A stretch of 64,000 bases of DNA from Aurantiochytrium sp. KH105 (taxonomy: Eukaryota; Sar; Bigyra; Thraustochytrida; Thraustochytriidae). Position 1 is the stretch's first letter, and every line of letters begins with the position of its first letter. Both the position numbers and the translations under genes were made by a program. Location of the stretch: NCBI GenBank assembly GCA_003116975.1, contig BGKB01000128.1, positions 150,154 to 214,153 on the forward strand, read 5' to 3'. Below the pieces are notes generated by a model that did not search any database, had not been told where the DNA came from, and saw only the letters and a program-made list of their open reading frames with translations. This document shows, one piece after another, positions 1,617 through 56,700 of the stretch.

Positions 1617-2921
1617 TCAAATTACTTGTTGTTGGTCTTGGTCCACTCCGACGGCTGCCTCGCTTGCTGCTTCCCTTGCCTCGCGCAGCAGGCGCCGACG
1701 ATGGTTACCGGAGCGAAAGGCAGGCGGCGAAAAGTTGGCGGGCCGCTGGATGTCTGCAAACCGCATGATTTGCGACCAGGTCAGCTCGGGCAAGAGCCCC
1801 AGAGACTCGTACTCGACGCGCAAGACGCGATTGCCGACCTCTGGGGACTCTACCGCCTTGGAAATGAGGTCGAGCGCGGTCTGATGCTCCTTTGCAGCCA
1901 TGACTCTATTGCTGCAATGGTGCTTGAGCACCGAACGCATCGTGTACTTTGCGTCGCGTGAAAGGACAATTGCACGCGCGTTAGGCACTCGCTTCAACAG
2001 CGTCTCAATATCGACAAAAAAGCGACCGTACTTGGGCTTTTGCAGCACATTACACATGTCGATCCCGGGCACAATTCTGATGGCACCATCGCACCACCCG
2101 CCCCAGGGCAGCGAAAGATGTTGAATATTAACGTAACCTCCGCCTTCCGGGTCGATGTGCGTTTTGCAAGCAGGATACTCGCCATCCCACCTCGAAGTCG
2201 GCTCGAAGAGCTTCGAAAGACTGCGGGTCATGAATCTCGTCCCAGTCGACTCGGGTCCAAAAACATAGATTGTTTTCATGGGCACACCGTTGCGCGCGGT
2301 GCCGCCTTTTACTCGGAGCTGATTCGTCGAAGTTCGTTGAGCATTTCGCAAAGTAGAACTTGTCGTCTTACCTCGCAAGGCTGACGCGGTTGTCTTTCCT
2401 CGCAAAGTACTTGTGGGTCTCATCACTTTCGATGCTTGCGCGCGAAGCGCACTTGTTGTTCTTTGACTGGAAACTGATCGATATGCGGCTTGCGGAACAG
2501 CCAAGGGTTTCGAAGTTGTTCGGACAGAAGGCGGAGCAGTCCGAACAATCGTGAGCGGCGCTGTACGGATCGTTGGCGACGCTGCTGGGATACTTGGCGG
2601 CTTTGTCGAGGTCAATGGGTTGGCCATTGCGGTGCGAAGCGCGGCAGCTGTTTTCGGAGATCTCGGCGTACCTGCTTGTGCGGCGCCATTGTCGCTTGTC
2701 AAGCCCACGCCTGCCGATGGAGGCGGAGTCTGGACTTCGTTCAACCCGTCTGCCGTCGCTCGCGTTGCACGCAGAGACCCGGCACTCGAAGTCGACTGCG
2801 ACAGCTCCTTTCGGAGTTCTGCTGCGCTGGCTTGGGCCACAATTGTGTCGGCCCCGCACGCTCTTGCGCACAGCGCAAATGCAACAATCGCCAGGAGCAG
2901 CGCTCGCAAACCCAGCCCCAT
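1617..2921 (-). CDS. sulfotransferase-like secretory protein, paralogue 2
   Basis: At 434 residues this is the longest of the three sulfotransferase-like paralogues. A hydrophobic N-terminus (about residues 5-22) acts as signal peptide or signal anchor. A low-complexity Ala/Thr/Pro stem of about 190 residues follows, with near-repeats of the type LRGKTTASA. The catalytic-like domain begins near residue 217 with the PAPS-loop-like GPESTGTRF (222-230), followed by HLSLPWGGWCDG and AIVLSRDAKYTMRS. The stem is the part that differs most between paralogues, as in Golgi glycosyl- and sulfotransferases. It is transcribed the same way as paralogue 1, 221 bp upstream of it. Function is inferred from motif pattern only. 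Confidence 0.6.
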   Translation of the reverse strand: MGLGLRALLLAIVAFALCARACGADTIVAQASAAELRKELSQSTSSAGSLRATRATADGLNEVQTPPPSAGVGLTSDNGAAQAGTPRSPKTAAALRTAMANPLTSTKPPSIPAASPTIRTAPLTIVRTAPPSVRTTSKPLAVPQAAYRSVSSQRTTSALRAQASKVMRPTSTLRGKTTASALRGKTTSSTLRNAQRTSTNQLRVKGGTARNGVPMKTIYVFGPESTGTRFMTRSLSKLFEPTSRWDGEYPACKTHIDPEGGGYVNIQHLSLPWGGWCDGAIRIVPGIDMCNVLQKPKYGRFFVDIETLLKRVPNARAIVLSRDAKYTMRSVLKHHCSNRVMAAKEHQTALDLISKAVESPEVGNRVLRVEYESLGLLPELTWSQIMRFADIQRPANFSPPAFRSGNHRRRLLREAREAASEAAVGVDQDQQQVI

Positions 2922-7337: not shown

Positions 7338-10300
7338 ATGGGCGCCTTGGCCTCGCTTCCCGCCGAAGACCTGGGCGGGATTAACCTCAAAGGAACCGTG
7401 GAAGAGGTCGGCGACGTGGATGATGCCCAGCTCCTGCACACTGCGGAAAGCTTCCTCCTCGACATCCTCGAAGCGCGAGCTCCTCTAAGGAGCCCTTGGA
7501 CCGCGGAGCTGCACGACGCGCTTGGATTTGAGCACGAATCGAAGACCATTGACAATCTGTACATTCGTCTGGCCAAGACGCAAGAGTCAGAGGGCGCTTC
7601 CAATGAACCTGAAACTTTGAATACTTCGGCCGTAGTGCAGCATGGAGATGGCTCTTCGTGGCAGAATGCACGACTTTCGGCCGACGGGCTCCGACTCGTA
7701 GACTCTCTCTGTATACAAGCAATTCACGCCCATGAAGCGAGCGCGCCTGACCTCATGACAGACACCGTGCTTGGCCAGGTCTTTGTCGGCGCGCATGAGT
7801 ATTGGGGGCAAACAGTCGTGCTCGAGATGGAGCACCCTGAGAATGCCGAGACCACGACAGGTCGACTACTTCTTTCGATTGAAGCTGGCTTGCCGTGGAG
7901 CGAGGCGGACGAGCCGTCTGCAGAGGCCTCTGTGATCCAGCTTTTGGCGGACCTACCCACGCAGTATCTTCGTGAAAATTGCGTTCGTGTCTTGCAGGGC
8001 GCACTGCAGCTCGTGCTGGAATTTCGACGAGCCGGCGTCACGAACCCAGTCGGTTTTGCTCTCAAAGAAAAGGCTACATTCTCGAGCTTATTGCATCGAC
8101 TTTTCGCTGCGGCGGAAGAAGATCGTTTCGATGAGCTCATGCACGAGATATGCCAGACCGCTACTCCGCATGCTCTCGAAGAGGTCGAAGCACAGCGATT
8201 GGCGCGTTTGCCATCCCTCCAGCATCTCTCAGAACCGTTGCAGCATCAGCAACATCAACAACAGCTTATTCAGCAAGAAGAGCCAATGATGATCCAACAA
8301 CAGCAGCAGCAGGAACAGCAGTTCATTAAGCAAGAAGAACCACTGATGATGCAACAACAACAGCAGCAAGAGCAGCTCATCCAGCAAGAGGAACCGATGA
8401 TGATGCAACAGCAGCAACAACAGCAAATCCAACAACAAGAAATCATGCAAAGCATGCAAGAAACACTGTCGCAGTTCCCAACAGCTGACCGTAAAATCGT
8501 CGTCAGACGTGAAATCCGCCTCATGCCGCGAGAAGACCAGGAACGCTTTGTGACCGCCGTAAAGAAACTGATGGAAAGCGAAGATCAGGGTGGATCCGAA
8601 TGGCTTCGGCTCGCGGGTTACCACGGGTGGCCGAGCAATGATGGCAAGGGGTTCTGCGTGCATCGCGCTGAAGCCTTTCCAGGATGGCATCGCGCGTACT
8701 TGCTCGCTCTCGAGGAAGCCCTCCAAGAAGCTGACCGAGCACTAGGCCGCGACGGGATGATTGCGCTCCCGTACTGGGACTTTTCGCAATATGAGGTGAA
8801 TGGAGAGATTGTTCCGCGAATCGTGCGCGAGGCCTTTGGAGAAAATTTTTCCTTTCCCGAAAACTTTTTTCCGACAGACGCAATGCAAAACGCTTCGCGT
8901 GGGGTCCAGCGGTTCGTTGAGACGCAGTTCAAGAGGCTTAACAACGATGATCGCGTCTTGCGTAAACTGCAAAAGGCAGCAGTGCGCGAAAAATCAAACG
9001 AGTGTCTGGACACGTTTACGAATCTTGAACACTGGCAGCACGCTTCGACGGAGAACAAGCGCAGTGAATCCGTGGAGTCGCCGCACAATGCCACGCACAA
9101 CGCACTTGGGTATCCTCTGACCTCTCTCAAATTCGCCGCCTTTCATCCAATGTTCTGGCTGCTTCACTGCAATGCAGACCGGCAGTACGAGAAATACATA
9201 CAAATCGAGACGCGCGAAGAGTGTTTGGCAGAGCTCCGCAACCACCAAGCAATGATTGCGGCTTCGGGCGGGAAGAATCTCTTCCTTGACGAGCTTAAAC
9301 CGTTTCAGCGGCCTGCGGCCCTTGGCAAAGGAGGTTTCACCCTGGAGGACACGCTGCTGCCACTTGCAGAACTCGGATATGCCTATGATAACTTGCCCCC
9401 GCGACCCAAGCAGATGATGCGCGAGCTGCCGGCGTTTGCCTTGATTCGGAATGTGGACGTTGCCACGAAGCTGCTCGACGCAGATGGAGAAATGAAGAGC
9501 TTTGATGTACACATTTTTGTGTGCCGCAAGGATGCGACGGACCGTGCCGAGCAGCGTGCAGCGTTGGAGAATGCTATTGCCGCCAAAGAGTCAAATCAGG
9601 CATTCGATGTCTGGGCAGATGCCCAAGCAGCGTATGCTGGCGTGTGCACGTTGTTTGGTGGCAAAGGTCCTGCTTGCAAGAATTGTCGCGAGAACAAAGT
9701 GATTCATGCGCGCGTCAACCTGAACGACGCGCTCGCGCGTCTTGACGTGTCGAGCCGGCACGAAATCGAGATCCTTGCCGCTGTCTGCGAGGACGAAGTG
9801 GGCGCGCTTGTTCTTTTGGAGCAAGTGCAAGAGGTATTCGGGCCTGGCGTCGAAATTCCTGCTCCCGAAATTGTCGGTCCTGCACTTGAGAAAAGCCATG
9901 CACAAGAAGCGTTCAAGTCCGAAGCCGCTGATATTGTGGCGATTCAAGGGGCGCTCGCCCAGCGAGGGTTTTATGGTGGCGCGCTTGACGGCGACCACGG
10001 GCCGCGGACGAATGCGGCAGTAGTTTCGATGCAAGAGTTTGCAGGCGTCGCTCGGGATGGGGTTGTTGGGCCCATCACGAGGGCAGCTTTGCGTGTCCCT
10101 CGCGTGGATGTGCATCATGACGCACGAGAGGAGTCAGCATCGACGCTGCGCACGGGCGCCATCTCGTACTTTGTCGGTGCTTCACCTGGATATCTGGAGC
10201 GCAACCAAGTCATTGCGGTGATCAAAGAGGCTCTCGACGAATGGGCAAGTGCTGGAACAGTGAGCTTTTCTCAAGTGGACTGTCGCGAGGCTGCCGACTT

Positions 10301-10643
10301 GTACATTGGTTGGGCCGATCATACGGACGATAATCAGATGATCTTCGATGGGCCCGGCGGCGAAATTGCTCGTGCTGACGCGTCAAGCATCACGTTTGAT
10401 GTTTCCGAGCGGTGGTCATGTGGCGAGCCTATGGCGTCAAACCCGCTTGCAAAGAAAGAGGCCATGAGCAGAAAGCGGCACATCGTCGGTCGTCGCGTCT
10501 TCAGCGTCAAAGCAGTATGTCTTCACGAGATTGGCCACGTGCTTGGGCTTCATCACCAGTCAACAGGGGTGATGGCTCCGTACTATGCAGCACGGCGCAC
10601 GAAGCTTAGCGCCGAAGACAAGGCATTGCTGCTGATTCAATAA
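7338..10643 (+). CDS. tyrosinase / peptidoglycan-binding-like / matrixin metalloprotease fusion
   Basis: The protein has 1101 residues. Residues 1-295 match nothing I recognise and begin MGALAS, which fits the N-myristoylation pattern. Residues 300-375 are a Gln-rich spacer with repeated IQQEEPMMMQQ units. A tyrosinase central domain follows: CuA ligands H429, H442 and H451 (CVHRAEAFPGWHR), and CuB ligands H583 and H587 (HNATH) and H610 (FWLLHCNADR). The first His of the usual HH pair is Leu609. Residues about 870-930 form a type-1 peptidoglycan-binding-like domain (LAQRGFYGGALDGDHGP ... DGVVGPITRAAL). The C-terminal 150 residues are a matrixin/metzincin zinc protease with H1063-E1064, H1067 and H1073 in HExxHxxGxxH, plus a VMAPYY Met-turn. 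Expected activities are phenol oxidation and proteolysis. No signal peptide is visible, so location is uncertain. All metal ligands are present, so it is probably active. Confidence 0.85.
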   Translation: MGALASLPAEDLGGINLKGTVEEVGDVDDAQLLHTAESFLLDILEARAPLRSPWTAELHDALGFEHESKTIDNLYIRLAKTQESEGASNEPETLNTSAVVQHGDGSSWQNARLSADGLRLVDSLCIQAIHAHEASAPDLMTDTVLGQVFVGAHEYWGQTVVLEMEHPENAETTTGRLLLSIEAGLPWSEADEPSAEASVIQLLADLPTQYLRENCVRVLQGALQLVLEFRRAGVTNPVGFALKEKATFSSLLHRLFAAAEEDRFDELMHEICQTATPHALEEVEAQRLARLPSLQHLSEPLQHQQHQQQLIQQEEPMMIQQQQQQEQQFIKQEEPLMMQQQQQQEQLIQQEEPMMMQQQQQQQIQQQEIMQSMQETLSQFPTADRKIVVRREIRLMPREDQERFVTAVKKLMESEDQGGSEWLRLAGYHGWPSNDGKGFCVHRAEAFPGWHRAYLLALEEALQEADRALGRDGMIALPYWDFSQYEVNGEIVPRIVREAFGENFSFPENFFPTDAMQNASRGVQRFVETQFKRLNNDDRVLRKLQKAAVREKSNECLDTFTNLEHWQHASTENKRSESVESPHNATHNALGYPLTSLKFAAFHPMFWLLHCNADRQYEKYIQIETREECLAELRNHQAMIAASGGKNLFLDELKPFQRPAALGKGGFTLEDTLLPLAELGYAYDNLPPRPKQMMRELPAFALIRNVDVATKLLDADGEMKSFDVHIFVCRKDATDRAEQRAALENAIAAKESNQAFDVWADAQAAYAGVCTLFGGKGPACKNCRENKVIHARVNLNDALARLDVSSRHEIEILAAVCEDEVGALVLLEQVQEVFGPGVEIPAPEIVGPALEKSHAQEAFKSEAADIVAIQGALAQRGFYGGALDGDHGPRTNAAVVSMQEFAGVARDGVVGPITRAALRVPRVDVHHDAREESASTLRTGAISYFVGASPGYLERNQVIAVIKEALDEWASAGTVSFSQVDCREAADLYIGWADHTDDNQMIFDGPGGEIARADASSITFDVSERWSCGEPMASNPLAKKEAMSRKRHIVGRRVFSVKAVCLHEIGHVLGLHHQSTGVMAPYYAARRTKLSAEDKALLLIQ
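8236..8460 (+). repeat. CAG/CAA-rich coding repeat (Gln-rich spacer)
   Basis: Imperfect repeats encode IQQEEPMMIQQQQQQ, IKQEEPLMMQQQQQQ and IQQEEPMMMQQQQQQQ, joining the unknown N-terminal region to the tyrosinase domain. CAG and CAA codons are mixed, which limits slippage. It is likely a flexible linker. Confidence 0.85.
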
Positions 10644-10989: not shown

Positions 10990-12798
10990 TTAGAGCTTGG
11001 ACTTGGGGTTCTTTTGCTGCTCGGAGAGGATCTTGTTGTCCTCGATGATCTGACGGATCTCGCGCTTGACGATCTTGCCGGTGGCGCCGCGAGGAAGCTG
11101 CTCGGACCAAATGTACAAGTGCGTGGGGCACTCGAACTTGGCGAGGTCCTCGCACTTGGCAACGATCTCCTCGAGCGTCAGCTTGGCACCGTTCTTGGGG
11201 AAGACGACGATACCAACCTCCTCGCCAAGAGTGGGGTGGGGAACGGGAATGGCGGCGCACTCGGCGACACCAGGGTGCTGGTAGACACCGTCCTCGACGG
11301 CGACGCAAGAAATGTTCTCACCTCCACGGATGATAATCTCCTTGGTGCGGCCGCCCAGGTGCAGGTAACCTCCCTCGTCAATGTGGCCAACATCGCCGGT
11401 GCGCAGCCATCCATCGGCAGTCATGGTATCCGCGGTGGCCTCGGGCTTACGCCAGTACTCCTTGAGGTTTGCGGCGCCCTTGACCATGACATTACCCTTT
11501 TGGCCAGCGGGCAGGGGCTTGTCGTTGTCGTCCCAGACGGCAATCTGCATGCTCGGCGTAGCGCGGCCGCAGCTGGTGGGGCGCTCGGCATACGTATCAC
11601 CATCGTTGAGGCAGGTGAGGGCGTTGGTTTCGGTCATGCCAAAGCCCTGCAGAGGGGCAGCGCTCTTGAAGTTGCTCTGCACGTCCTTGACCATTGTCGA
11701 GGGGGGGGCAGCACCGCCACCGCCAACAGCCTCGAGAGAGCTGGTGTCGTATTTTTTAAAGTTAGGATGGTTCATCATGTCGAGGACCATGGTGGGCACA
11801 CCAGTAAAATTGGTAACGCGCTCGCGCTCGATGAGCTGGAGGGCCTGCTCGATGTTCCACTTGTCCATCATGACCATCTTGCGGCCAATGACAAAGGAGA
11901 GGAAGAAGACCGAGTGGAGGCCCGTGGCGTGGAAGAGAGGCACGTTGAGCAGGACGGCAAAGTGTTTGGGGTCGACCTCCTCCGGCGTGAAGGTTTTTCC
12001 GGCCTTGACGGCAGCCATCATCTTTTGGCGGATACTGTGCGCCACGGCGCAAGTGATGGCGTGGCAGATGCTGCGGTGGGTGAGCACGACACCCTTGGGA
12101 TGGCCCGTCGTGCCCGAGGTGTACATGATGAGGGCATTGTCGTCCTTGCCGGCAGTAAGAGGCGGCATGGCGTCGCCGCGGCGCTTAGACACGACGTCCT
12201 TGTACATGAGGAGCTTGGGATGGGGCTCAACGCTTCCGGCGTTAGCGTCGTCGAAGAGGATGACCTTTTCGAGGTTGGTGAGCTTGTCGAGAATGGGGAC
12301 GAGGAGCTTGTAGCGGTCGAGATCGCAGAGCACGATCTTGGTGCCCGAGTTGTCGAGGCCGTACTCGAGCTCCTTGGTCTTCCACCACGAGTTCATGGGC
12401 ACGCAGGTGGCCCCGACCGAGGTGGACGCCATGACGCCGATGGCGTACTCGGGTCGGTTTTTGGAGACGATGCAGACGCGGTCGAGGGTCTTGACGCCAA
12501 AATCGTTAATGAGCGCAGATCCGAGGGCGGAGGCCTCCTCGTCGGCCTCGCGAAAGGTGTAGCGTTTGTCCTCATAGACGAGGAACGGGTTGTCGAGGTT
12601 TCCGGTCGCCTTGGGGAAGCTGAAGAGGTCTACAAGCGTCTGGGGGCCGTTCGGGTACACCTGGTACTTGACGCCCTTGTGATGCGGGGCATGGTTCTCC
12701 TCAAACGCGATGACCTCCTCGCGCATCTCCAGCAGCGTCCCGGGCGCGTGCAGCGTCGCGTCGATCGCCGCCTCCTGCTCCTTGGTCAGCGCCGGCAT
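10990..12798 (-). CDS. PTS1-bearing acyl-CoA synthetase (AMP-forming), array copy 1
   Basis: An ANL-superfamily adenylate-forming enzyme that activates a carboxylic acid with ATP to an acyl-adenylate and then transfers it to CoA. The 602 residues carry the AMP-binding signature YTSGTTGHPKG (226-236), the GGRTKEIIIRGGENIS hinge and A8 region, and the C-terminal PRGATGKIVKRE motif with the catalytic lysine. The protein ends in -SKL, a canonical type 1 peroxisomal targeting signal. It is the last of five same-strand paralogues; its 5' end faces copy 2 across 1.4 kb. N-terminal residues TLHAPGTLLEMREEVIAF align with the other copies, supporting this start. Substrate chain length cannot be read from sequence; a medium- or long-chain fatty acid is plausible. 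Confidence 0.88.
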   Translation of the reverse strand: MPALTKEQEAAIDATLHAPGTLLEMREEVIAFEENHAPHHKGVKYQVYPNGPQTLVDLFSFPKATGNLDNPFLVYEDKRYTFREADEEASALGSALINDFGVKTLDRVCIVSKNRPEYAIGVMASTSVGATCVPMNSWWKTKELEYGLDNSGTKIVLCDLDRYKLLVPILDKLTNLEKVILFDDANAGSVEPHPKLLMYKDVVSKRRGDAMPPLTAGKDDNALIMYTSGTTGHPKGVVLTHRSICHAITCAVAHSIRQKMMAAVKAGKTFTPEEVDPKHFAVLLNVPLFHATGLHSVFFLSFVIGRKMVMMDKWNIEQALQLIERERVTNFTGVPTMVLDMMNHPNFKKYDTSSLEAVGGGGAAPPSTMVKDVQSNFKSAAPLQGFGMTETNALTCLNDGDTYAERPTSCGRATPSMQIAVWDDNDKPLPAGQKGNVMVKGAANLKEYWRKPEATADTMTADGWLRTGDVGHIDEGGYLHLGGRTKEIIIRGGENISCVAVEDGVYQHPGVAECAAIPVPHPTLGEEVGIVVFPKNGAKLTLEEIVAKCEDLAKFECPTHLYIWSEQLPRGATGKIVKREIRQIIEDNKILSEQQKNPKSKL

Positions 12799-14227
12799 CT
12801 TCTCTGCCTTCTCTCCTTCTCACACGCACGCTGCTCCCTTGCTCCGCTCGCTCTGCGTTGACTCTGCGCTTGCTCTGCACTCGCTCGCTCGCGTCCTCGA
12901 CTCCCTCGTTGCAGATCCGGGTTTGCTCTCTCCCCCTCGCTCCCGATCTTCTTTCTCCTGGGTGCCGGAAGGAGGCGCGCCTAGCCGCCGCCTAGGCCCT
13001 GCTACCCGCACACCGCCGCACGGTTTGTTTCTCTGCGCCTGTTTGTTTGCCCAGATCATCGCAGGCCAGACAGACCCAACCCGCCTGTCGTCCCAGTCCG
13101 TGTCCACCTCGGCAGCCACACAGCCACTGCCCCGCCACTAGTACGTCGCGATCCTTGCCGTTGATTTGATCACTCCTCCCCACCCCGCGCAGCCGCAGCG
13201 GTATCCTTCGCGAGCTCCCCCTCCTCTGGCTCGAACGACACAAGCTCCCGAGTTCACAGACAGCTGCACTGCAGCAGCTGCAGCTGCAGGTGGATGGATG
13301 GATAAAAGCGAAGGAAGGAACAAGCGCTGCTCGTGCTGCAGGCACGCACGCAGGGCGCGCGCGGTTGCGGCACGGCCTAGGAAAAACGCACGCCGCTGCC
13401 GCGAGCGTCTCCCTGCCGTCGATCCAAGGCTGCGGCGGCGAGCGGCGGGCGACGGAAAGATACGAATCGACTCACGAGGGCGCGAGCAACCATCCAAAGC
13501 GCCGCAGCCGCACCGCTTTCTTTCTTGCGGCGCGGACTGTAGCGTAGCTCTCTAGCTTGTAGCAGTAGCAGGTGCGGTGGTTAGTCAGCTGGGTCGGTCC
13601 GACGCGCCGCCTCGGTCCGCCTCGCGCCGCCGGTCCTCTTTTCTCTCCTCCTCTTTTCTCCGCAGCGTGGTTCTCCTCTGGATCAGCTCTTCTAGCTCCC
13701 CGTTCTCGCCCGCCCCGCCCGCGACGATGCTCGCGCTCGCCCGCGCCTCGGCTTCCGCGTTGGCGTGACTTGGCTCGCCGCCTGCGAGGCGCCTGCAATG
13801 CGACGCGAGGCGAGGCGAGGCGAGGCGAGGCGAGGCGAGCGATGCGCGCCGCGCCGCGTCGTCAGAGCGCGGGAGGGGAGGACTGGCAGGCTGGCCCCGG
13901 GAAGCCCCGCGGCGCGAGGTCCCCGGACCTCGCGCGGGCGCGCGCCGGGCTGAGAGCGCTCGGGGGGAGCCTAGCGAGCGAGGGAGCGAGGGAGAACCAA
14001 CGAGCGAGCAAGCAAGCAAGCATGGAGAAAGAAAGCGCGCATTGCATGCATGGAGATCGAAGATAAGTTAGAGAGAGAGCTACACCGCTGCAAGGCTCGG
14101 ACGATGATGGTCGCATGAGGATCGTGCAGCGGTCGGCATGCGGACAGCAAAGGTCGCTTGACTGAGAACCACAGCTCAGGCGCCGGACAATAGGATAATC
14201 GCAGTCAGGTCACCGAACGACAGTAGT
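12799..14227. other. upstream region of acyl-CoA synthetase 1
   Basis: GC-rich, with no supported gene. Contains a CTGCAGCTGCAG palindrome cluster at about 13261-13290, a (GCGAG)n pentanucleotide array at 13805-13839 and an AAGC run at about 14009-14020. It presumably includes the promoter of copy 1 and the 3' region of copy 2. Confidence 0.5.
13805..13839 (+). repeat. (GCGAG)n pentanucleotide array
   Basis: Seven near-perfect GCGAG units. The same pentamer array recurs at about 38059-38088 and 41904-41929, and as the complement near 6637-6654. Confidence 0.9.
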
Positions 14228-16045
14228 TTAGAGCTTGGAGGCGGGCGCCTGCTTCTGCTGCTCGGAAAGTAGCTTCTTGTCCTCGATAATCTGGCGGATG
14301 TCGCGCTTGACGATCTTGCCGGTGGCCCCACGCGGAAGCTGCTCGGGCCAAAGGTACAGGTGCGTCGGACACTCGAACTTGGCGAGGTCGCTGCACTTGG
14401 CGACGATCTCCTCGAGCGTCAGCTTGGCGCCGTTCTTGGGGAAAACGACAATGCCGACCTCCTCGCCGAGCGAGGGGTGAGGAACAGGGATGGCCGCGCA
14501 CTCGGCGACGCCAGGGTGCTGGTAGACGCCATCCTCGACGGTGACGCAGGAAATATTCTCGCCACCTCGGATGATGATCTCCTTGGTGCGCCCTCCGAGG
14601 TAGAGGTACCCCTCCTCATCGAGATGGCCAACGTCCCCGGTGCGCAGCCAGCCGTCACGCGTGATGGTGTCGGCCGTGGCCTCCGGCTTGCGCCAGTACT
14701 CCTTCATGACAGAGGCCGACTTGACCATTACATTACCCTTTTGGCCAGTGGGCACAGGCTTGTCGTCGTCGTCCCAGATGGCAAGTAGAAGTGTTGGCAC
14801 GGCGCGGCCGCAGCTCGTGGGCTTGGCGCAATAGGCGTCACCATCCGTGAGCACGGAAAGGGCATTCGTCTCCGTCATGCCAAAGCCCTGGGTGGGCGCG
14901 GCGTTTTTAAAGTTCTTGCCAATGTCCTTGGTGATGGTGCTCGGAGGCGCCGCCCCGCCGCCGCCCACGGCCTCGAGCGAGCTGGTGTCATACTTGCTAA
15001 AGTTCGGGTGGTTCATCATGTCGAGCACCATGGTCGGCACACCCGTGAAAGCTGTGATGCGCTCGCGCTCCACGAGCTGAAGTGCACGCTCCGGATTCCA
15101 CTTGCTCATCATGACGATCTTGCGACAAGTCACGATGGAGATCATGCAAACGGCATGAAGACCCGTGGCATGGAAAAGGGGCACATTGAGCAGAACGCCA
15201 GCTTTGCTCAACTCTTCAGGCGTGGGCTCTTCGGCAGTGGGTGTGATACCCGCTTTGACGGCGGCAACGGTTTTGTTCAGCACAGCATGGGCAATCGCTG
15301 AGAAAAGAGCGTGGCAAATGCTGCGATGCGTCATCACCACGCCTTTGGGGTGGCCCGTGGTGCCAGACGTGTACATGATGAGAGCGTTTTCGTCTTTGCT
15401 CGCGGTGAACGGCGGCATCGTTGCGCCCTGGTGCTTGGCGACGGCATCGTCGTAGGCGATGCGCTTGGCGTGCGGCGCAAAGGCATCGGTGCCCGGCCCG
15501 TTGAGCAGAAGAACCTTTTCAACGGTGTCGAGTTTGTCGAGAATTGGCTCGAGGAACTTGTAGCGATCCGCGTCACAAATGACAACTTTAGTGCCCGAGT
15601 TCTCGAGTCCGTACTCGAGCTCTTTGGTCTTCCACCACGAGTTCATCGGTACAAAGCAGGCGCCGACCGAGGTCACGGCAATGAAGGCCACCAAGTACTC
15701 GATGCGGTTCTTGGAGACGGCGCAGACACGATCGCCCTGCTGCACGCCAAATCCGTTCACAAGGACGTCACCGAGAGCTGCGGCTTCGGCATAGACCTGG
15801 GTAAAGGTCCTGCGGTCATCCTCAAAGACGAGAAACTCGTTCTCCATCACGCCCTTCGCCTTGGGAATCTCAAACACGTCGACCAAGGTTTGTGGCGCGT
15901 TGGGAAAGACCTTATACTTGACGCCCTCGTGGTGAGGCGCGTGCTTGTCCGGGAAGGCAATGACCTCTTCCCGAAGCTCCAGCAGCGTGCCGGGCGCGAA
16001 CACCTTTTCCGCGATCGCATCCTCGAACGGCCCTCGGCTCATCAT
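14228..16045 (-). CDS. PTS1-bearing acyl-CoA synthetase (AMP-forming), array copy 2
   Basis: This 605-residue paralogue of copy 1 shares the YTSGTTGHPKGV P-loop, TGVPTMVLDMMNHPNFSKYD block, GGRTKEIIIRGGENIS hinge and PRGATGKIVKRDIRQ catalytic end. The C-terminus is -SKL (PTS1). By eye it is closest to copy 3: both have DAIAEKVFAPGTLLE-type N-termini, and their FAPHAKRIAYDDA segments are nearly identical. The start gives MMSRGPFEDAIAEKV; the extra seven or so residues compared with copy 3 are not conserved. Peroxisomal activation of fatty acids for beta-oxidation is the expected role. The variable segment just after the P-loop (about 255-280) is where the copies differ most. Confidence 0.88.
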   Translation of the reverse strand: MMSRGPFEDAIAEKVFAPGTLLELREEVIAFPDKHAPHHEGVKYKVFPNAPQTLVDVFEIPKAKGVMENEFLVFEDDRRTFTQVYAEAAALGDVLVNGFGVQQGDRVCAVSKNRIEYLVAFIAVTSVGACFVPMNSWWKTKELEYGLENSGTKVVICDADRYKFLEPILDKLDTVEKVLLLNGPGTDAFAPHAKRIAYDDAVAKHQGATMPPFTASKDENALIMYTSGTTGHPKGVVMTHRSICHALFSAIAHAVLNKTVAAVKAGITPTAEEPTPEELSKAGVLLNVPLFHATGLHAVCMISIVTCRKIVMMSKWNPERALQLVERERITAFTGVPTMVLDMMNHPNFSKYDTSSLEAVGGGGAAPPSTITKDIGKNFKNAAPTQGFGMTETNALSVLTDGDAYCAKPTSCGRAVPTLLLAIWDDDDKPVPTGQKGNVMVKSASVMKEYWRKPEATADTITRDGWLRTGDVGHLDEEGYLYLGGRTKEIIIRGGENISCVTVEDGVYQHPGVAECAAIPVPHPSLGEEVGIVVFPKNGAKLTLEEIVAKCSDLAKFECPTHLYLWPEQLPRGATGKIVKRDIRQIIEDKKLLSEQQKQAPASKL

Positions 16046-16898
16046 CTTTCCTTCCTTGCTCTGCTCTGTTTTCTCAAGAGCTCTGAGATGCTCTGTGCTG
16101 CTGTTCTCCCAGTCTTCCTCGGTCGCAATTGCAGCTTTGCCGCTTCCCCGCCCATTGTCTCCCTGCCTGTCTCCGTGCGCTTGCCTGTCGCACAGTATTC
16201 CCCTTTTCGATCCTGCATCGCACCGTCGCAGTCACACTGTCAGGTGTCCCGATAGACCTTGACGGGGCCAATTACCGCCAGCAACCGCGGTATCTTTCTC
16301 GCGGTCGGACCGCCCGCGCCGGTCCGCCGGGCGAGAAGACGACCGCTCGTCCCGACTCCGGACGCGCGCGACAATGACGGCGGCGAGAAAGGGATCCCAA
16401 GTTTGGCAAGGAACGACAGCGACTGCGAATTGCGGTGCGATGCGCGACAGAGTCAGAGAACATTACTGTAGCCAGGTAGACGTATACAACCATCTACATC
16501 AGCCGTACTACTTACTATACGATAAGTGCATCTTCATTTGTATTTATGGCATGGCTTTATCCGCTAATCGTTGATTCCATGAGTATGCTCGTGCGTATTT
16601 TTACAGACTTCTTCGAGACCTGTCAGGTAGTCGTTGTTGGCGCAACAGGACTTCGAGAAGGCCGGGATTCTGGCCGCCAAAAGAGGGGTCTCAATAGAGC
16701 TATAGACGGAAAATTGCCGCACCGGCGGAAACAAAGAACCGATGACTCCAACTCGCGCCTCAGGCTAGACGGACAACTTACTTGACTGCTTTATAAAAAA
16801 AACAACGATTTGCTTTGCTGTACTGGGAAAAAAGAGAAGAGGAGAGAGTCGACGAGAAAGAGAAGAAGAGGGGTACCAGAGCTCTGACTCGGGGGCGA
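16046..16898. other. intergenic region between acyl-CoA synthetases 2 and 3
   Basis: Includes the promoter of copy 2, with one CTTGACGG motif (16258-16265), followed by AT-richer DNA near 16480-16600 and the 3' region of copy 3. No gene seen. Confidence 0.5.
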
Positions 16899-18692
16899 TC
16901 AGAGCTTGGACTTGGGGTTCTTCTGCTGCTCGGAGAGGATCTTGTTGTCCTCGATGATCTGGCGGATCTCGCGCTTGACAATCTTGCCGGTGGCCCCGCG
17001 CGGGAGCTGCTCGGGCCAAATGTACAAGTGCGTGGGGCACTCGAACTTGGCGAGATCATCGCACTTGGCAACGATCTCCTCGAGGGTCAACTTGGCGCCG
17101 TTCTTAGGAAAGACCACGATGCCGACCTCCTCGCCGAGCGAAGGGTGGGGAACTGGGATGGCCGCGCACTCGGCGACGCCAGGGTGCTGAAAGACACCAT
17201 CCTCGACGGCGACGCAGGAAATGTTCTCGCCTCCGCGAATGATAATCTCCTTGGTGCGACCGCCAAGATGCAGATACCCATCCTCGTCGAGATGGCCCAC
17301 GTCTCCGGTACGCAACCAGCCATCGCGCGTGATGGTCTCGGCCGTGGCTTCTGGCTTGCCCCAGTACTCCTTCATGACGGAGGCACCCTTGATCATGACA
17401 TTGCCCTTTTGGCCAGCGGGCACGGGCTTGTCGTTGTCGTCCCAGACGGCAATCTCCACCGTCGGCACGGCTCGGCCGCAACTGGTGGGCTTGGCTCGGT
17501 AGGCATCGCCGTCAGTGAGGGCGGCGACTGCGTTGGTCTCCGTCATGCCAAAGCCCTGGTTCGGGGAGGCCTTTTTGAAGTTCTTGCCAACGTCCTTGAC
17601 CATTGAGCTCGGTGGCGCAGCGCCACCGCCACCAATGGCCTCGAGAGAGCTCGTATCGTATTTGCTAAAGTTCGGGTGATTCATCATGTCGAGCACCATG
17701 GTCGGAACACCGGTGAAATTTGTAATGCGCTCTCGCTCCACGAGCTGGAGGGCGCGCTCAGGCTCCCACTTGCCCATCATGACAATCTTGCGGCACGCAA
17801 GGATGGAAATAATGCAAACAGCGTGAAGTCCCGTGGCATGGAAGAGAGGTACATTCAGCAGAATGGCCTTGGCTTTGGTTGCTTCGGCACTTTCCTCTGC
17901 AGCGGGCGCAGTGCCTGCTTTGACGGCCTCAATCGTTTTGGTGAGTGCAGAATGCGCAACAGCTGCCGTAAGAGCGTGGCAGATGCTGCGGTGCGTGAGC
18001 ACCACACCCTTCGGGTGGCCCGTAGTGCCAGACGTGTACATGATGAGAGCGTTCTCATCCTTGGTCGCCACAAAGGGGGGCATGCTCGCACCCTGATGCT
18101 TTGCAATGGCGTCGTCATAGGCAATGCGCTTGGCGTGCGGCGCAAAGGCGTCGGTGCCCGGTCCGCTGAGCAGGAGAACCTTACTGAGGCCGGTAAGCTT
18201 GTCGAGCACAGGCTCGAGAAACTTGTAGCGATCCGCATCGCAAATGACCACCTTGGTACCCGAATTGTCGAGTCCGTATTCGAGCTCCTTCGTCTTCCAC
18301 CACGAGTTCATGGGCACGAAGCAGGCACCAACCGAGGTCACGGCGATGAGCGCCACAATGTATTCGATGCGGTTCTTGGAGACGACACAGACACGGTCGC
18401 CGCGCTGCACGCCGAGTCCATTCACGAGGGCATCGCCGAGCGCTGCGGCTTCGGCAAAGACCTGGCCAAAGGTCCTGCGATCGTCCTCGAAGACGAGGAA
18501 CTCATTGTCCATCACACCCTTGGCCTTGGGGATGTTAAAGACATCGACCAAGGTTTGCGGTGCGTTGGGGAAAACCTTGTACTTGACGCCATCGTGGTGG
18601 GGCGCATGTTTGTCCGGGAACGCAATGACTTCTTCTCCGATCTCCAGCAGCGTGCCGGGGGCGAACACCTTTTCCGCAATCGCGGCCTCCAT
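16899..18692 (-). CDS. PTS1-bearing acyl-CoA synthetase (AMP-forming), array copy 3
   Basis: The chosen start gives 597 residues beginning MEAAIAEKVFAPG, which aligns with copy 2. The open frame runs 65 codons further upstream, but that extension is a low-complexity Arg/Ser/Gln string. The chosen ATG is directly preceded on the sense strand by an AGCAAGCAAGCAAGC leader like those before other genes here. All ANL motifs are intact (YTSGTTGHPKGV, GGRTKEIIIRGGENIS, PRGATGKIVKRE), and the C-terminus reads KNPKSKL, identical to copy 1 and a PTS1. This mixture of similarities, body like copy 2 and tail like copy 1, is what gene conversion or recent tandem duplication would leave. Confidence 0.88.
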   Translation of the reverse strand: MEAAIAEKVFAPGTLLEIGEEVIAFPDKHAPHHDGVKYKVFPNAPQTLVDVFNIPKAKGVMDNEFLVFEDDRRTFGQVFAEAAALGDALVNGLGVQRGDRVCVVSKNRIEYIVALIAVTSVGACFVPMNSWWKTKELEYGLDNSGTKVVICDADRYKFLEPVLDKLTGLSKVLLLSGPGTDAFAPHAKRIAYDDAIAKHQGASMPPFVATKDENALIMYTSGTTGHPKGVVLTHRSICHALTAAVAHSALTKTIEAVKAGTAPAAEESAEATKAKAILLNVPLFHATGLHAVCIISILACRKIVMMGKWEPERALQLVERERITNFTGVPTMVLDMMNHPNFSKYDTSSLEAIGGGGAAPPSSMVKDVGKNFKKASPNQGFGMTETNAVAALTDGDAYRAKPTSCGRAVPTVEIAVWDDNDKPVPAGQKGNVMIKGASVMKEYWGKPEATAETITRDGWLRTGDVGHLDEDGYLHLGGRTKEIIIRGGENISCVAVEDGVFQHPGVAECAAIPVPHPSLGEEVGIVVFPKNGAKLTLEEIVAKCDDLAKFECPTHLYIWPEQLPRGATGKIVKREIRQIIEDNKILSEQQKNPKSKL

Positions 18693-19251
18693 GCTTGCTT
18701 GCTTGCTGCTCTCCCTCTGTTCTCGCTGCAGTCGGCTCTGCTCTGCTCTCCTCTCTCTGCTCCGGCTCGCTCTGCGCTGCTCGGGGCCGCGCTGCGCTTT
18801 TCTGCTCTGCTGCGCTCTCTCCTCTTCGCAGCTTGGCTCGGACCAAGCAAGCCAAGCAAGCAGGGCTAGGCGGTAGTATCTACGCACGGCACGGGATCGA
18901 TCACCTTTATGACCGGACGGCGGATCGGACCCAGTGGCACGTGGTCAGTCCGCCGCGCTTCTGATTCGCCTCAAGTAGTTCGGGGGGCGGAGAAAGAGGG
19001 AGGGAGGGGGGGGGGGGGGAGGAGAGGAGAGGCTCGATCGGGCGGATGTTCAGAATGGTGTTGCCTTTGATTGGATTCATACGGAAGAAGAAAGCAAAGT
19101 AGGTCTGTAGAAGGCATTCAAGCATAATGAGCAAACAAGCCGGTGGACCAGGAGAGCAAGGAATCGAACGTGACGGGCGCACCATCAAAATCGAGAGAGA
19201 TAAATGCAAGATAGTGATAAAGATTGGGGGCGCAGAAATGGTGAAAATCAA
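18693..19251. other. intergenic region between acyl-CoA synthetases 3 and 4
   Basis: Contains the AAGC-type leader of copy 3 and a long G homopolymer at about 19008-19019 in a G/A-rich tract. No gene seen. Confidence 0.5.
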
Positions 19252-21048
19252 TCAGAGCTTGGAGGCGGGCACAGCCTCGTCCTTGACCTTGCCGGCCTTG
19301 ATGTCGGCCAAAATGGTGCGCTTATGGATCTTGCCCGTGTCTCCACGCGGGAGCTGCTCGGGCCAAAAGTAAAGATGCGTAGGCATCTCGTAACGCGCGA
19401 GGTTCACGCAAACATCGCGAATGCTCTGGAGCGAGGGTCGCGCGCCAGACTGGCTAAAGACGGCAATGCCGACCTCCTCGCCAAGCGTGGGATGGGGGAC
19501 CGGGATGGCCGCCACTTCATTGATATCATCGTGCTTGTAGACTGCGTTTTCGACAACGACGCAGGAAATGTTCTCGCCTCCGCGAATGATGATCTCCTTG
19601 CTACGGCCCTTGAGCTGGAGGAAGCCTTCCTCGTCAATGACGCCAATGTCACCGGTTCGGAACCAGCCCTCGGCTGTGATGCTCTTGGCCGTAGCCTCGG
19701 GCTTGTTCCAGTACTCTTTGAGGCAGGTGGACCCACGAATGACAAGCTCTCCCTCGGCGCCCGCGGGCACGGGCTCGTCGCGAGCATTCCAGATGGCAAT
19801 CTCGACATTGGGGATGGCCTTGCCGCAGCTATCCGGCTTGCGCCGGTACATGTCGCCTTCGGTGATGGTTGCAATGCCATTGGTCTCCGTCATGCCCCAG
19901 GCCTGCAGCGGAGACGCTTGTTTGAAGTTCTTGTCGATGTCGTTCACCATGGTGCTCGGAGGCGCCGCGCCACCGCCGCCGAGAGACTTGAGCGTGCTCG
20001 TGTCCCGCTTCTTAAAGTCCGGGTGGGTCATCAGGTCGAGAGCCATGGTGGGCACGCCAGTAAAGTTTGTAATGCGCTCGGTCTCAATGAGCTCCAGGGC
20101 AAGCTTGGGATCCCACTTGCTCATGAGCACGATCTTGCGGCAGCTAATGATAGAGAGCAGACCGACGCAGTGGTGGCCCGTCACGTGAAAGAGCGGAACG
20201 CCGAGCAAGAAGGCCGACAGCGATGGGTCTTCGGGCTCGGGCAAGGTCTCGCCAGCTCTGGCGGCGGCAAGCGTCTTCTCGTACGTCATGGCTGCAACAG
20301 CGCCCGTCATGGCTTCGCCAATGCTGCGGTGCGTGAGCACGACGCCCTTGGGGTTGCCGGTGGTTCCCGAGGTGTACATGATCATGGCAGGGTCGTCCTT
20401 TTGGCAGGGAAAGGGCGGCATCTTGGCGCCGGCGTGCTTGCTGATGACCTCGTCAAAGGCGGTGGTCTTGGCGTTGGGGCGGAACTTTTCAGTGCCGGGC
20501 CCACTGAGGAGAAGAACGCGCTCCAGTGCGGAGGCGCGGCCGTCCAGGAGAGGCTCGAGCTGCACGTAGCGGTCGGCGTCGCAGACGACGACCTTGGCGC
20601 CCGAATCATCGAGCCCGTACGAGAGCTGCTCCGTCTTCCAGTACGAGTTGAGGGGTGCAAAGATGGCGCCGACCGAGGTCGCCGCGATCATGGCGACAAT
20701 GTACTCGTTGCGGTTCTTGGAGAGAGCGACAACGCGATCGCCCTTCTTCACGCCGTACTCGTTGACGAGGGCGTCGCCGAGCGCGGCGGCGGCGTCAAAG
20801 ACCTCCTGAAAGGTCATGCGTCCGGTCTCGTCGACGAGCAAGTCGTTCTTCATGACCTGCTTCTCGAAGGGCACCTTGAAGATATCCTCCATGGTCTGGA
20901 ACCCGTTCGGGAACACCTTCATCTTGACGCCCTTGAAGTGCGCCGCCTCGCCCTCGTGCTTGACCACCTCTTCGCGCATCTCCAGCATCGTGCCCTTCGC
21001 GAACACCTGCTCCCACACCTCCTTCTCCAGCCCCGCGAGCCCCGCCAT
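19252..21048 (-). CDS. PTS1-bearing acyl-CoA synthetase (AMP-forming), array copy 4 (divergent)
   Basis: The 598-residue copy 4 is the most divergent of the five. Its P-loop is YTSGTTGNPKGV (Asn instead of His), the Trp pair in the NSWWKTKELEYG block is replaced (NSYWKTEQLSYG), and the C-terminal catalytic segment reads PRGDTGKIHKRTILADI. Active-site features remain: the P-loop, a GGENIS hinge and the terminal Lys motif. It ends in -ASKL (PTS1). The differences lie in regions that line the acyl pocket in ANL enzymes, so a different substrate from the other copies is a reasonable inference. The start MAGLAGLEKEVWEQVFAKGTMLE aligns with copy 5. Confidence 0.87.
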   Translation of the reverse strand: MAGLAGLEKEVWEQVFAKGTMLEMREEVVKHEGEAAHFKGVKMKVFPNGFQTMEDIFKVPFEKQVMKNDLLVDETGRMTFQEVFDAAAALGDALVNEYGVKKGDRVVALSKNRNEYIVAMIAATSVGAIFAPLNSYWKTEQLSYGLDDSGAKVVVCDADRYVQLEPLLDGRASALERVLLLSGPGTEKFRPNAKTTAFDEVISKHAGAKMPPFPCQKDDPAMIMYTSGTTGNPKGVVLTHRSIGEAMTGAVAAMTYEKTLAAARAGETLPEPEDPSLSAFLLGVPLFHVTGHHCVGLLSIISCRKIVLMSKWDPKLALELIETERITNFTGVPTMALDLMTHPDFKKRDTSTLKSLGGGGAAPPSTMVNDIDKNFKQASPLQAWGMTETNGIATITEGDMYRRKPDSCGKAIPNVEIAIWNARDEPVPAGAEGELVIRGSTCLKEYWNKPEATAKSITAEGWFRTGDIGVIDEEGFLQLKGRSKEIIIRGGENISCVVVENAVYKHDDINEVAAIPVPHPTLGEEVGIAVFSQSGARPSLQSIRDVCVNLARYEMPTHLYFWPEQLPRGDTGKIHKRTILADIKAGKVKDEAVPASKL

Positions 21049-53047: not shown

Positions 53048-53700
53048 GGTTTCCGCCTCACGCGCTCACCGACACCGCGCAGAGCGCCGGCCGCGGGCCC
53101 TGGGCGCGCGCGCTTCTCTCCGGCGACGACTCCGGCGACGACTCCGGCGCTCCCGCGGCCGCCGCGCGCGCGCGAGGTCTGCGAGGCACGGACTCGAGTT
53201 CTCGTGTTCGGCGTCTGCTCGAGTGACTTTGCTGGTCTGTCTCGGCAGCGCTGTCTCCGCCCACGCGGTTTGAAAGCGAAAAGGCAAGCGAAAAGGGCGG
53301 CTCGCGGAAAGCCCCACTTGCGGCGCGCGGTTTGCCCTTCTTGCGGCCGCCATTCCCGACTTGCGTCCGCGGCGAGGCCGGCCGGCAGAGCAGCCAGGCA
53401 TCCTCCCGCGTTTGCAGAGTCTGACTTTCAAACACGCAAACCCTCCCGCCCCCGACCCCGACGCGCGCGAGCCCGAGCGCGAGCTCGCAAGGAAGCCGCC
53501 GCCGCGCAGAGCGCCCCGCCCGCGCCCGCGCCCGCCCCGCCCCGCCGAGCCCGCGCGCGCGCAGCGGCGCCGACCCCGGTCGAGCAGGACCCAGGCTGGA
53601 GGAGAGGAATCCGGTCGGTGCTCGAGCCGGGAGCGCAGTCGTACTCCGCCTCGTGCAGCCCGCGACGGGGGCTGCGCGCGCCGACGAGGACGCAGGGAAG
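53048..53700. other. divergent promoter region of membrane protein and golgin
   Basis: GC-rich. Carries GCCCCACTTGCG (53311-53322) and TTTGCCCTTCTTGCG (53331-53345), resembling the element arrayed at 26501-26588. The open frame of the golgin extends upstream to 53653, but that part is not protein-like. Confidence 0.5.
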
Positions 53701-56700
53701 ATGAGCTTCTGGGGAGACCTGAACAAAGGCCTGGAGAAGGCCAGGAGAAATGCAGAGGGTCTCGTCAAGAACGCAGAAGGCCTCGTGAACAAGACCTTGG
53801 ACGAGCTCATGGAGGAAGGAGACGGCGACGACGACGACGACCGCGGCCCTGACAGCGAGAATGGCTGGGACGACGGTGAAGACGACGGCGACGACGACGA
53901 CGACGATGATGACGACGATGACGATGATGATGATGGTATTAATGAAGACGACGGTGATGACATGGCCCATGCCAAAGACACCAATGTCGTCGCCACCGAG
54001 GGCCCCGACAATGCTGGACATGCACAGGACATTGCAAATGCCAAGCAAGTCTCGGGCGACCAGGCCAAAGCGACCGCAGAGGGTGGCTGGGGAGACCAGG
54101 ACGAGGAGCTTGATCTCGACCAGGACACTTTGCAAGCGCAACACAGGCCCGCCGACCAAGACGAGGATGATGCGTGGTCCGGCGACAATGGAGACTGGGG
54201 CGACGAGGATGAACAAGAAGATGGAGAAGGGTCAGAGGCTCCCTCGTCGTCTGTCGCGACCGGCTTTCTTGGTCTCGCGAGAAACATCGGCAGCAACTTT
54301 AACAGAATGCTCAACGAAGAAGACCAGGACGACGGCAGCAGTGAGGATGACGATGACGATGCGGCGGCCGACAACAGCGGCGACGAGGGCGAAGACTCTG
54401 GTGACAACAATGGACAAGACCAAGGTCGCGAGGGCGACCAGGCGAAGAGCGCACAAACCACCAACGCCGCGAAGGGGGGTCGAACGCGTGGCATGTTTGA
54501 CTTTGTCAACCAAGTAGGCCGCATTATCGCGTCTGAGGCTGACAGCGATGAAAGCGCCGCGCAAATGCGCCGGCTTCTCGATGACGCGGAAAACGTCAAA
54601 ATGGAGATGCAGCTGCTTAAAGACGAAAAAGAGAGCTTCCAGCAGCTCATTCGCCAGTACGAGAACGAGCGCGAGTCCATGCAGCGCCAAATCGAAAGTC
54701 TGCAGACCCAAGGAGGGTCGGCAACATCAATCTCGTCGGAAGATGCACAACAAAAGACCAATGCCCAGGTCGAGGCGGAAGGCAAGGGCCGCGAGCAGCT
54801 CCGGGGAGAGCTCGAAGCGCTTGAAGCGCGTGGAGCACAAGCTGAAAGGGAAAATGCTGACCTCCAAGTCAAGCTTCAGGAAGCTCTTCGTCAGGCCGCA
54901 TCACAAGGTCAAGAGATTGAGCGCCTACAAATGCAGCTCAACGCAGAAGCAACAGACTCTCGGGCGGCTGCTGCTGAGGGTGATGAAGACGCTGAAGAAG
55001 AAGTCACAGAGCTCAAGCAGCGCCTCGAGCAAGCTGAAGAAGACGCTGCTCAAGCAAGAAGTCTGCAAGAAGAATTGCAGGCAAAACTTGACGAGCTACA
55101 TGCCGCTACAGATTCTACGAATGACCCGGATGACTCCACAAATGCGCTCCAAGCCAAGGAAGAAGAGATTGCGCGTCTGAACGATGACCTTAAGAGCGCG
55201 CGTGCTGGACTCGCCGCGGCAAAAGATCTCCGGGAACAGTTCGACAACCAAAAGGAAGAGCTCGACAGGCTTACGCATGAGCTTCACTCTGCACAGGAAA
55301 GTGGGGCCAGTCTCGAGAGTCTCCAGGCGGAGCTTGAAGCAAAGAATGCCGAACTCGAGGAAGCGAAGGCGCTTCGTGAGGAGCTCAAGTCGAAAGAAGC
55401 CCAGCTTCGAGACTTGAACCAAGAGCTCGAAGAATCGGCTCGCGCTGATGAAGCCGATGCTGCTGCCCTTCGCAAAGAGCTTGAGACTAAAACCGAGGAG
55501 CTCGAGGCAGCAAATGAGCTTCGTAAGGAACTCGAGGCCAAGGACGAAAAGCTCAAGCAATTGGAGGAAGAGCTTGAGACCGCAAATGGGCTTCGCGAGC
55601 AGCTCGAGACCAAAGACGAAAAGCTCAAGCGACTTGAGGAAGAGCTTGAGACCGCACATACTGGTGAAAGCGATGCTACGAGTCGCCTCCGCGAAGAACT
55701 CGAGACCAAGACGAGCGAACTTGAGAAGCTTTCGGAAGAGCTTGAAACCGCGGATGAGCTTCGCGAGCAGCTCAAGACCAAGACGGGCGAAGTTGAAAAG
55801 CTATCGCTCGAGCGTGAGGCGGTAAATGCTCTTCGCGTGGAACTCGAGACCAAGACGGGCGAAGTTGAAAAGCTATCGCAAGAGCTTGAGGCGGCAAATG
55901 CTCTTCGCGAGGAACTCGAGGCCAAAGATGAGAAGCTGAATCAATTAGAGCAAGAGCTCGAGACTGCGCGTGCTGGCGAAAGCGATGCCGCAAATAGATT
56001 TCGCGAGGAACTCGACACCAAAACAGGCGAAGTTGAAAAGCTATCGCAAGAGCTTGAGGCGGCAAATTTTCTTCGCGAGGAACTCGAGACCAAGGATGAG
56101 AAACTCAAGCAATTAGAGCAAGAGCTCGAGACTGCACGAGCTGGCGAGAGCGATGCCACCAATAGTCTTCGCGAGGAACTCGAGACCAAGACGGGCGAAG
56201 TTGAAAAGCTATCGCAAGAGCTTGAGGCGGCAAATTTTCTTCGCGAGGAACTCGAGACCAAGGATAAGAAACTCAAGCAATTTGAGCAAGAGCTCGAGGC
56301 TGCCAGTGAGCTCCGCAAGCAGCTTGATGACCAAAAACATACGGTCGAGAAGCTCACGCACGATTTGGAAGCTGCACGTGCAAGCGAGAATGATGTTACG
56401 AATAGTCTCCGCGAAGATCTTCAACGCAGAAGCCAGGAACTCGAGGCAACAAAGCAGATTTTCGAACAACAGAGCGCGGCAAAGGACCAAGACGTGGCTC
56501 GATTGACCGAGGAGCTCGAGGCTGCCAAAGCCGATGAAAGCAAGCTGGACTCTCTTCGGGAACAGCTCGAGGCCAAAGACGAACAGGTGGAGGAACTGCG
56601 CGAAGCCCTCGAGGACGCCAAGACGGAAGGAAGTTCTGCAGAGGAGCTGCAAGCTCGTCTCGATGCAAAGGAAAAGGAGCTTGAAGCTGCTCTTGCTCAA

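Follow-up and report, generated by a model that had tools for sequence, protein, structure and literature searches.

We analyzed a 64,000-nucleotide stretch of the genome of Aurantiochytrium sp. KH105 (contig BGKB01000128.1, positions 150,154 to 214,153; hereafter the window) and found that it encodes a tyrosinase fused to a matrixin protease in a single open frame. Between the two enzymes lie a joining stretch and a peptidoglycan-binding-like domain (PGBD). The fusion is real: it recurs at four loci of the genome, in two diverged paralogues. The reading that we favor, to which we give a probability of about 0.42, is that the protein is a latent tyrosinase of the cytosol, probably tethered to a membrane, that carries its own activating protease for removing a lid from the tyrosinase site.

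The fusion is one intact open frame, present at four loci

The fusion gene in the window (gene A, allele A1; Table 1) is preceded by an in-frame stop 27 bases 5' of its ATG, and three Pfam domains score over their gathering scores: Tyrosinase (residues 420-621, E 1.6e-28), PG_binding_1 (residues 864-918, E 9e-12) and Peptidase_M10 (residues 941-1095, E 7.1e-23). Neither gene A nor its paralogue, gene B, reached the cut-off of any NCBIfam model. A preliminary description of this DNA had proposed a single intact frame with two copper sites (H429/H442/H451 and H583/H587/H610) and a complete HExxHxxGxxH zinc site with a Met-turn, and our analysis bears out each of these points; the zinc site comprises H1063-E1064, H1067 and H1073, and the Met-turn is M1079.

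A six-frame Pfam profile search of the genome (76.03 Mb, 367 contigs; matches at E up to 0.001) returned six tyrosinase, four matrixin (PF00413) and four PG_binding_1 (PF01471) matches; as the search scores exon by exon and takes the best candidates only, it might overlook a free matrixin whose gene is interrupted by introns. All the matrixin and PG_binding_1 matches fall in the same four open frames, together with four of the six tyrosinase matches, and at each locus the order is tyrosinase, PGBD, matrixin. The loci form two pairs, with gene A on contigs C128 (that of the window) and C134 and gene B on C5 and C21. The two gene A alleles are 97% identical. The proteins of A and B share 35-36% identity overall, with 43.9% in the tyrosinase core, 37.5% in the joining stretch (residues 691-860), 41.5% in the PGBD and 37.5% in the matrixin. 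Within each pair, the neighborhoods align at a DNA identity of ~90-95%. A blastn comparison of one A locus with one B locus gave no match. The domain E-values and the repeat of the architecture at four loci exclude chance. Because both diverged paralogues have the same order, the two halves were most likely joined before A and B separated and have stayed together since.

We infer that this is a thraustochytrid genome with both haplotypes assembled, since the tyrosinases, the N-myristoyltransferase and the matches to omega_3_PfaA (a polyunsaturated fatty acid synthase model) all occur on contig pairs. The omega_3_PfaA matches (E 1.4e-278) are below the model's own cut-off and only suggestive, as 11 of 14 control genomes were also matched below cut-off. 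The N-myristoyltransferase matches on C5 and C21 lie at nearly equal distances from gene B (~190 kb), which fits the two contigs being alleles. In a passage of PMC5924542, Aurantiochytrium sp. KH105 is thought to be diploid. The G+C content of the window ranges from 0.50 to 0.70 per 2-kb block and is mostly >0.54.

The whole frame looks constrained. The ratio of non-synonymous to synonymous substitution rates (dN/dS, Nei-Gojobori between alleles), which rests on few non-synonymous changes per region (2 to 8), is <1 in every region tested. For gene A it is 0.14 over the whole frame, 0.09 in the N-terminal region, 0.24 in the repeat, 0.10 in the core, 0.16 in the joining stretch, 0.08 in the PGBD and 0.27 in the matrixin; for gene B it is 0.09 over the whole frame, 0.09 in the N-terminal region, 0.03 in the core, 0.10 in the joining stretch, 0.16 in the PGBD and 0.14 in the matrixin. 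As a side observation, dS within the allele pairs (C128/C134 and C5/C21) is ~0.10 in both genes, seemingly high for one species; a hybrid origin of the pairs is possible.

The copper core and the stretch behind it

The six copper-ligand histidines (H429, H442, H451, H583, H587, H610) are invariant in all four fusion proteins. Gene A thus has the six histidines that define a type-3 copper protein, and phenol oxidase activity is predicted. The best-scoring solved relatives of its core are molluscan hemocyanins. The triplet Y681-A-Y683 may be an end-of-core tyrosine motif. C440-V-H442 is compatible with a Cys-x-His thioether, a link of the kind described between Cys84 and His86 of vsTyr in a section of PMC10526336. 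A third tyrosinase pair, separate from the fusion family, lies on contigs C15 and C6 (L018 3583-5784, minus strand; L019 5002-7203, plus strand). Its 734-residue open frames have three transmembrane-like stretches and no matrixin match.

Among 24736 Pfam models, Tyrosinase_C (PF18132) ranks first for residues 696-850, with a match below cut-off (E 0.026 in A1, 0.019 in the other allele). The best-kept block of the joining stretch reads YAGxxTxFGGKGxxCKNC, in which a Phe stands seven residues ahead of a CxxC, both invariant in the four proteins. Phe454 and Cys462-Cys465 of abPPO4 (PMC4157443, in part) offer a comparison for Phe773 and this CxxC, and Phe513 of aoTyr and Phe453 of vsTyr are used in a like manner, according to a section of PMC10526336. 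It appears likely, although unproven, that residues 696-850 form a tyrosinase C-terminal lid rather than a mere linker.

The protease half resembles a protease zymogen

The best-scoring solved relatives of the protease half are stromelysin-3 for gene A and MMP-20 and pro-matrilysin for gene B. Paralogue B aligns with pro-matrilysin, a matrix metalloprotease (MMP) zymogen, through the prodomain, the switch and the catalytic domain. At the switch position, MKRNDALPD in B stands opposite QKPRCGVPD in pro-matrilysin, with Asp replacing Cys. D924 of A aligns with D783 of B, and the PRCGVPD cysteine switch is absent in both. As both paralogues have Asp at this position, an aspartate switch at D924, of the kind found in karilysin, is possible.

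Gene A has the full HExxHxxGxxH and the Met-turn in both alleles, and all four proteins retain HExGH and the Met, as well as a calcium-type loop (FDGxGG...FDxxE, read by eye). The histidines of the MMP structural-zinc site, which consists of three His and one Asp, are replaced in both paralogues (alignments, by eye).

The fusion proteins look cytosolic

Hydropathy, used here without a dedicated signal-peptide predictor, gave no signal peptide and no 19-residue stretch reaching 1.6 (the mark of a transmembrane segment) in any of the four fusion proteins. The proteins start with MGxxxS (MGALAS in A, MGSGLS in B), the type of start accepted by N-myristoyltransferase, with Gly2 and a small residue at position 6. 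The genome encodes this enzyme (two NMT_C matches, PF02799), and N-myristoylation on Gly2 is predicted. The frame of the B2 allele stays open for 18 further codons upstream, with no ATG there.

Paralogue B also has a C2 domain (residues 66-156, E 5.8e-20), and the best PDB match of that part is synaptotagmin-1. Its Asp positions resemble, by eye, the calcium ligands of such domains. A C2 domain is unrecognizable in gene A (probability 0.4% in an hhalign comparison of the A and B N-terminal regions). The lack of a signal peptide or transmembrane stretch, the MGxxxS starts and the C2 domain of B together point to the cytosolic face of some membrane, and the fusion proteins look cytosolic and membrane-tethered. 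According to part of PMC3658974, the type-3 copper proteins include a known subclass that is cytosolic and thought to predate the unikont divergence.

A proposed latent tyrosinase with its own protease, and the alternatives

Our favored reading can be put as a series of predicted steps. The protein would be made without a signal peptide and be N-myristoylated on Gly2. The CxxC of the lid would aid copper loading, and the lid would then set Phe773 over the dicopper site and keep the tyrosinase inactive. The matrixin behind the lid would itself be latent, with the PGBD as a prodomain that offers Asp924 to the zinc. Once woken, perhaps when calcium rises in a damaged cell, the matrixin would cut where core and lid meet, either in its own molecule or in a neighboring one, and an active phenol oxidase would be freed. 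The preliminary description had suggested that cleavage by one half could activate the other half; we retain this idea as the favored one, with the cleavage itself still conjectural. A narrower version, a self-maturing phenol oxidase stored at the membrane in the cytosol, locked by the lid and the aspartate-switch matrixin and triggered by calcium, is a good deal more speculative. There, calcium entering at a breach would turn on the matrixin and, in B, the C2 domain; the lid would be cut, and quinones or melanin would seal or defend the cell.

Several results weigh against a lidded tyrosinase activated by its own matrixin. The Tyrosinase_C match is sub-threshold and is found in two of the four members, with none for paralogue B. 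A profile of the joining stretch against PDB sequences found no tyrosinase at E up to 10, and phmmer with the middle part of the stretch alone found no tyrosinase among PDB sequences. PF18132 run over the organism's own genome gave no match, as it gave none in the controls. An AlphaFold2 model of gene A (from an alignment of four rows) had a mean confidence score (pLDDT) of 28.9, with none of the 1101 residues reaching 50, too low to place the lid or the aspartate switch. Matrixins are unusual in the cytosol. The zinc site of paralogue B has, in both alleles, one inserted residue that displaces the third His (HELGHTLGLRTH), so the B protease may be dead. We dropped the simpler view that the B zinc site is just broken, because the alignments with MMP-20 and pro-matrilysin show one insertion before an MMP-like HSxDPSxxM; the status of this site is uncertain. 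Finally, evolution seems a little faster in the matrixin than in the tyrosinase core, with p 0.09 in the Fisher test described below.

These last two points would also suit a matrixin that has become a pseudo-protease, a tail that binds or scaffolds without cutting. The matrixin dN/dS exceeds that of the core by a factor of ~2.5 to 5 (0.27 versus 0.10 in A, 0.14 versus 0.03 in B), with a Fisher test (core and matrixin counts only, pooled over A and B, half-counts rounded) giving only p 0.09, and the structural-zinc ligands of MMPs are not retained (by eye). We regard a pseudo-protease as doubtful, however, because HExGH and the Met are found in all four proteins, gene A has the complete zinc motif and purifying selection persists. 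Equally doubtful is a polyprotein, in which the fusion would only ensure joint production of an oxidase and a protease that are then cut apart to act on different substrates. Each half does have its own complete domains, and the long variable stretches could be cut, but both paralogues retain the domain order and the stretch that leads from core to PGBD, and the six-frame genome search gave no matrixin or PG_binding_1 match outside the fusion frames.

The preliminary description had also proposed that the protein might cross-link and remodel the same matrix, which we read as a secreted enzyme at work on an extracellular matrix. Both enzyme families are often extracellular. Still, secretion appears improbable given the hydropathy of all four proteins, their myristoylation-like starts and the C2 domain in B; the protein would have to leave the cell by an unconventional route or have a 5' exon that escaped notice, and our results do not support the idea. 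An artefact of assembly, splicing or annotation that fused two separate genes is very improbable: nothing was found in its favor, the joining stretch is conserved as protein, and the error would have had to arise in each of two diverged paralogues and in both haplotypes.

Relatives outside the genome

Scans of bacterial genome contigs (53 and 54 pattern-matched stretches) and of viral contigs (103, 27, 129 and 134 pattern-matched stretches) gave no relative confirmed by tblastn. These scans, which included no cellular eukaryotes, were each seeded with two to six short peptides, and their reach is limited to near relatives, so absence from prokaryotes and viruses is not established. A tblastn search of plasmids with the full query found one record, from Rhizobium, in the tyrosinase region only, and Pfam gave a tyrosinase alone. 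With the protease half, 19 records were found; Pfam analysis of one of them (Paenibacillus WP_338709029) gave a PGBD-matrixin protein without tyrosinase. Together with the MMP zymogens, this protein agrees with the earlier remark that the PGBD-matrixin pairing is an ordinary one.

We did not meet a tyrosinase-matrixin fusion in limited literature searches, thraustochytrids and stramenopiles included, as judged by titles and the starts of abstracts. Tyrosinase domains in novel combinations are mentioned, with no partner named, for the oomycete Saprolegnia in a part of PMC3681718, and a similar fusion there is possible.

Features of the window

Table 1. Features of fusion gene A, in window coordinates.
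Feature	Position	Strand	Remarks
Fusion gene A, allele A1 (tyrosinase, putative lid, PGBD, matrixin)	7338..10643	+	One open frame, 1101 residues, ATG to TAA
N-terminal MGALAS, N-myristoylation-like	7338..7355	+	Counterpart in paralogue B, MGSGLS
N-terminal region, residues 1-295	7338..8222	+	No convincing Pfam match
Degenerate tandem repeat, 54-57 bp, QQEEPMMMQQ-like units	8239..8426	+	Alleles differ in length, in-frame
Tyrosinase core, residues 389-690	8502..9407	+	Pfam and solved relatives
CuA site H429, H442, H451	8622..8690	+	Sequence motif
CuB site H583, H587, H610	9084..9167	+	Asn584 directly after first His
Y681-A-Y683, possible end-of-core tyrosine motif	9378..9386	+	Y-V-F in paralogue B
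Putative tyrosinase C-terminal lid, residues 696-850	9423..9887	+	Sub-threshold Tyrosinase_C (PF18132)
F773 (candidate placeholder) and C780-K-N-C783 (candidate copper-loading CxxC)	9654..9686	+	Invariant
PG_binding_1 domain, residues 864-918	9927..10091	+	In the place of the MMP prodomain
D924, position of the MMP cysteine-switch Cys	10107..10109	+	D783 in paralogue B
Peptidase_M10 (matrixin) catalytic domain, residues 941-1095	10158..10622	+	Pfam
Calcium-type loop FDGPGGEIA...FDVSE	10344..10409	+	Kept; alignments read by eye
Catalytic zinc motif HEIGHVLGLHH, H1063-H1073	10524..10556	+	Sequence motif
Met-turn M1079	10572..10574	+	Sequence motif

Directly downstream of gene A lie four tandem AMP-binding (acyl-CoA-synthetase-like) genes of 598-662 residues each (10990-21048, minus strand). 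Two sulfotransferase-like genes (415-1395 and 1620-2921, minus strand) are found close to the start of the window, and the latter falls just short of its Pfam cut-off. A 126-bp tandem repeat of 8.7 copies (60596-61692) overlaps minus-strand open frames; its period is compatible with 42-residue TPR-type repeats, and the one frame scanned there matched no Pfam model (E up to 1e-4). The plus-strand frame at 53653-59859 (2068 residues) has a strong AT skew, 72/168-bp repeats and a coiled-coil-like repeat unit; it too was without a Pfam match at this threshold. The 64-kb window gave no tRNA and no Rfam match.

Comparison with known systems

The protease half is most like the MMP zymogens (M10A, for instance pro-matrilysin), which also have a PGBD-like prodomain followed by a matrixin with the zinc motif, the Met-turn and the calcium-type loop. 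It differs from them in the Asp that replaces the switch Cys, in the replaced structural-zinc His and in the tyrosinase in front, and by hydropathy the four fusion proteins do not have the secretion signal of such zymogens. Karilysin shares with the fusion a matrixin domain and has an aspartate switch, as the fusion may. Paenibacillus WP_338709029 has the same succession of PG_binding_1 and Peptidase_M10, with no tyrosinase and with an FG-GAP-like match behind instead.

For the copper core, molluscan hemocyanin functional units are the best-scoring solved sequence relatives; hemocyanins are chains of such units, whereas the fusion protein is one unit joined to a half that resembles a protease zymogen. 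Fungal pro-tyrosinases (abPPO4, aoTyr) also show a dicopper core with Cys-x-His near CuA, followed by a C-terminal Phe and CxxC. As described in part of PMC4157443, they come without an attached protease, and the likeness of the fusion's lid to theirs is sub-threshold. That source, dated 2014, calls the origin and type of the protease that matures the mushroom tyrosinase unknown. With a zymogen-like half behind the putative lid, self-maturation could be tested on one recombinant protein with one point mutation. If the favored reading is true, the protein would be a single-chain, self-activating phenol oxidase and an MMP-like enzyme at work inside the cell; if the calcium-triggered version is true, it would amount to a prophenoloxidase cascade in one molecule. 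PGBD-matrixin proteins and lone tyrosinases are known, and what appears new here, judging by the sequences, is a pro-tyrosinase-like protein to which a protease-zymogen-like half has been added.

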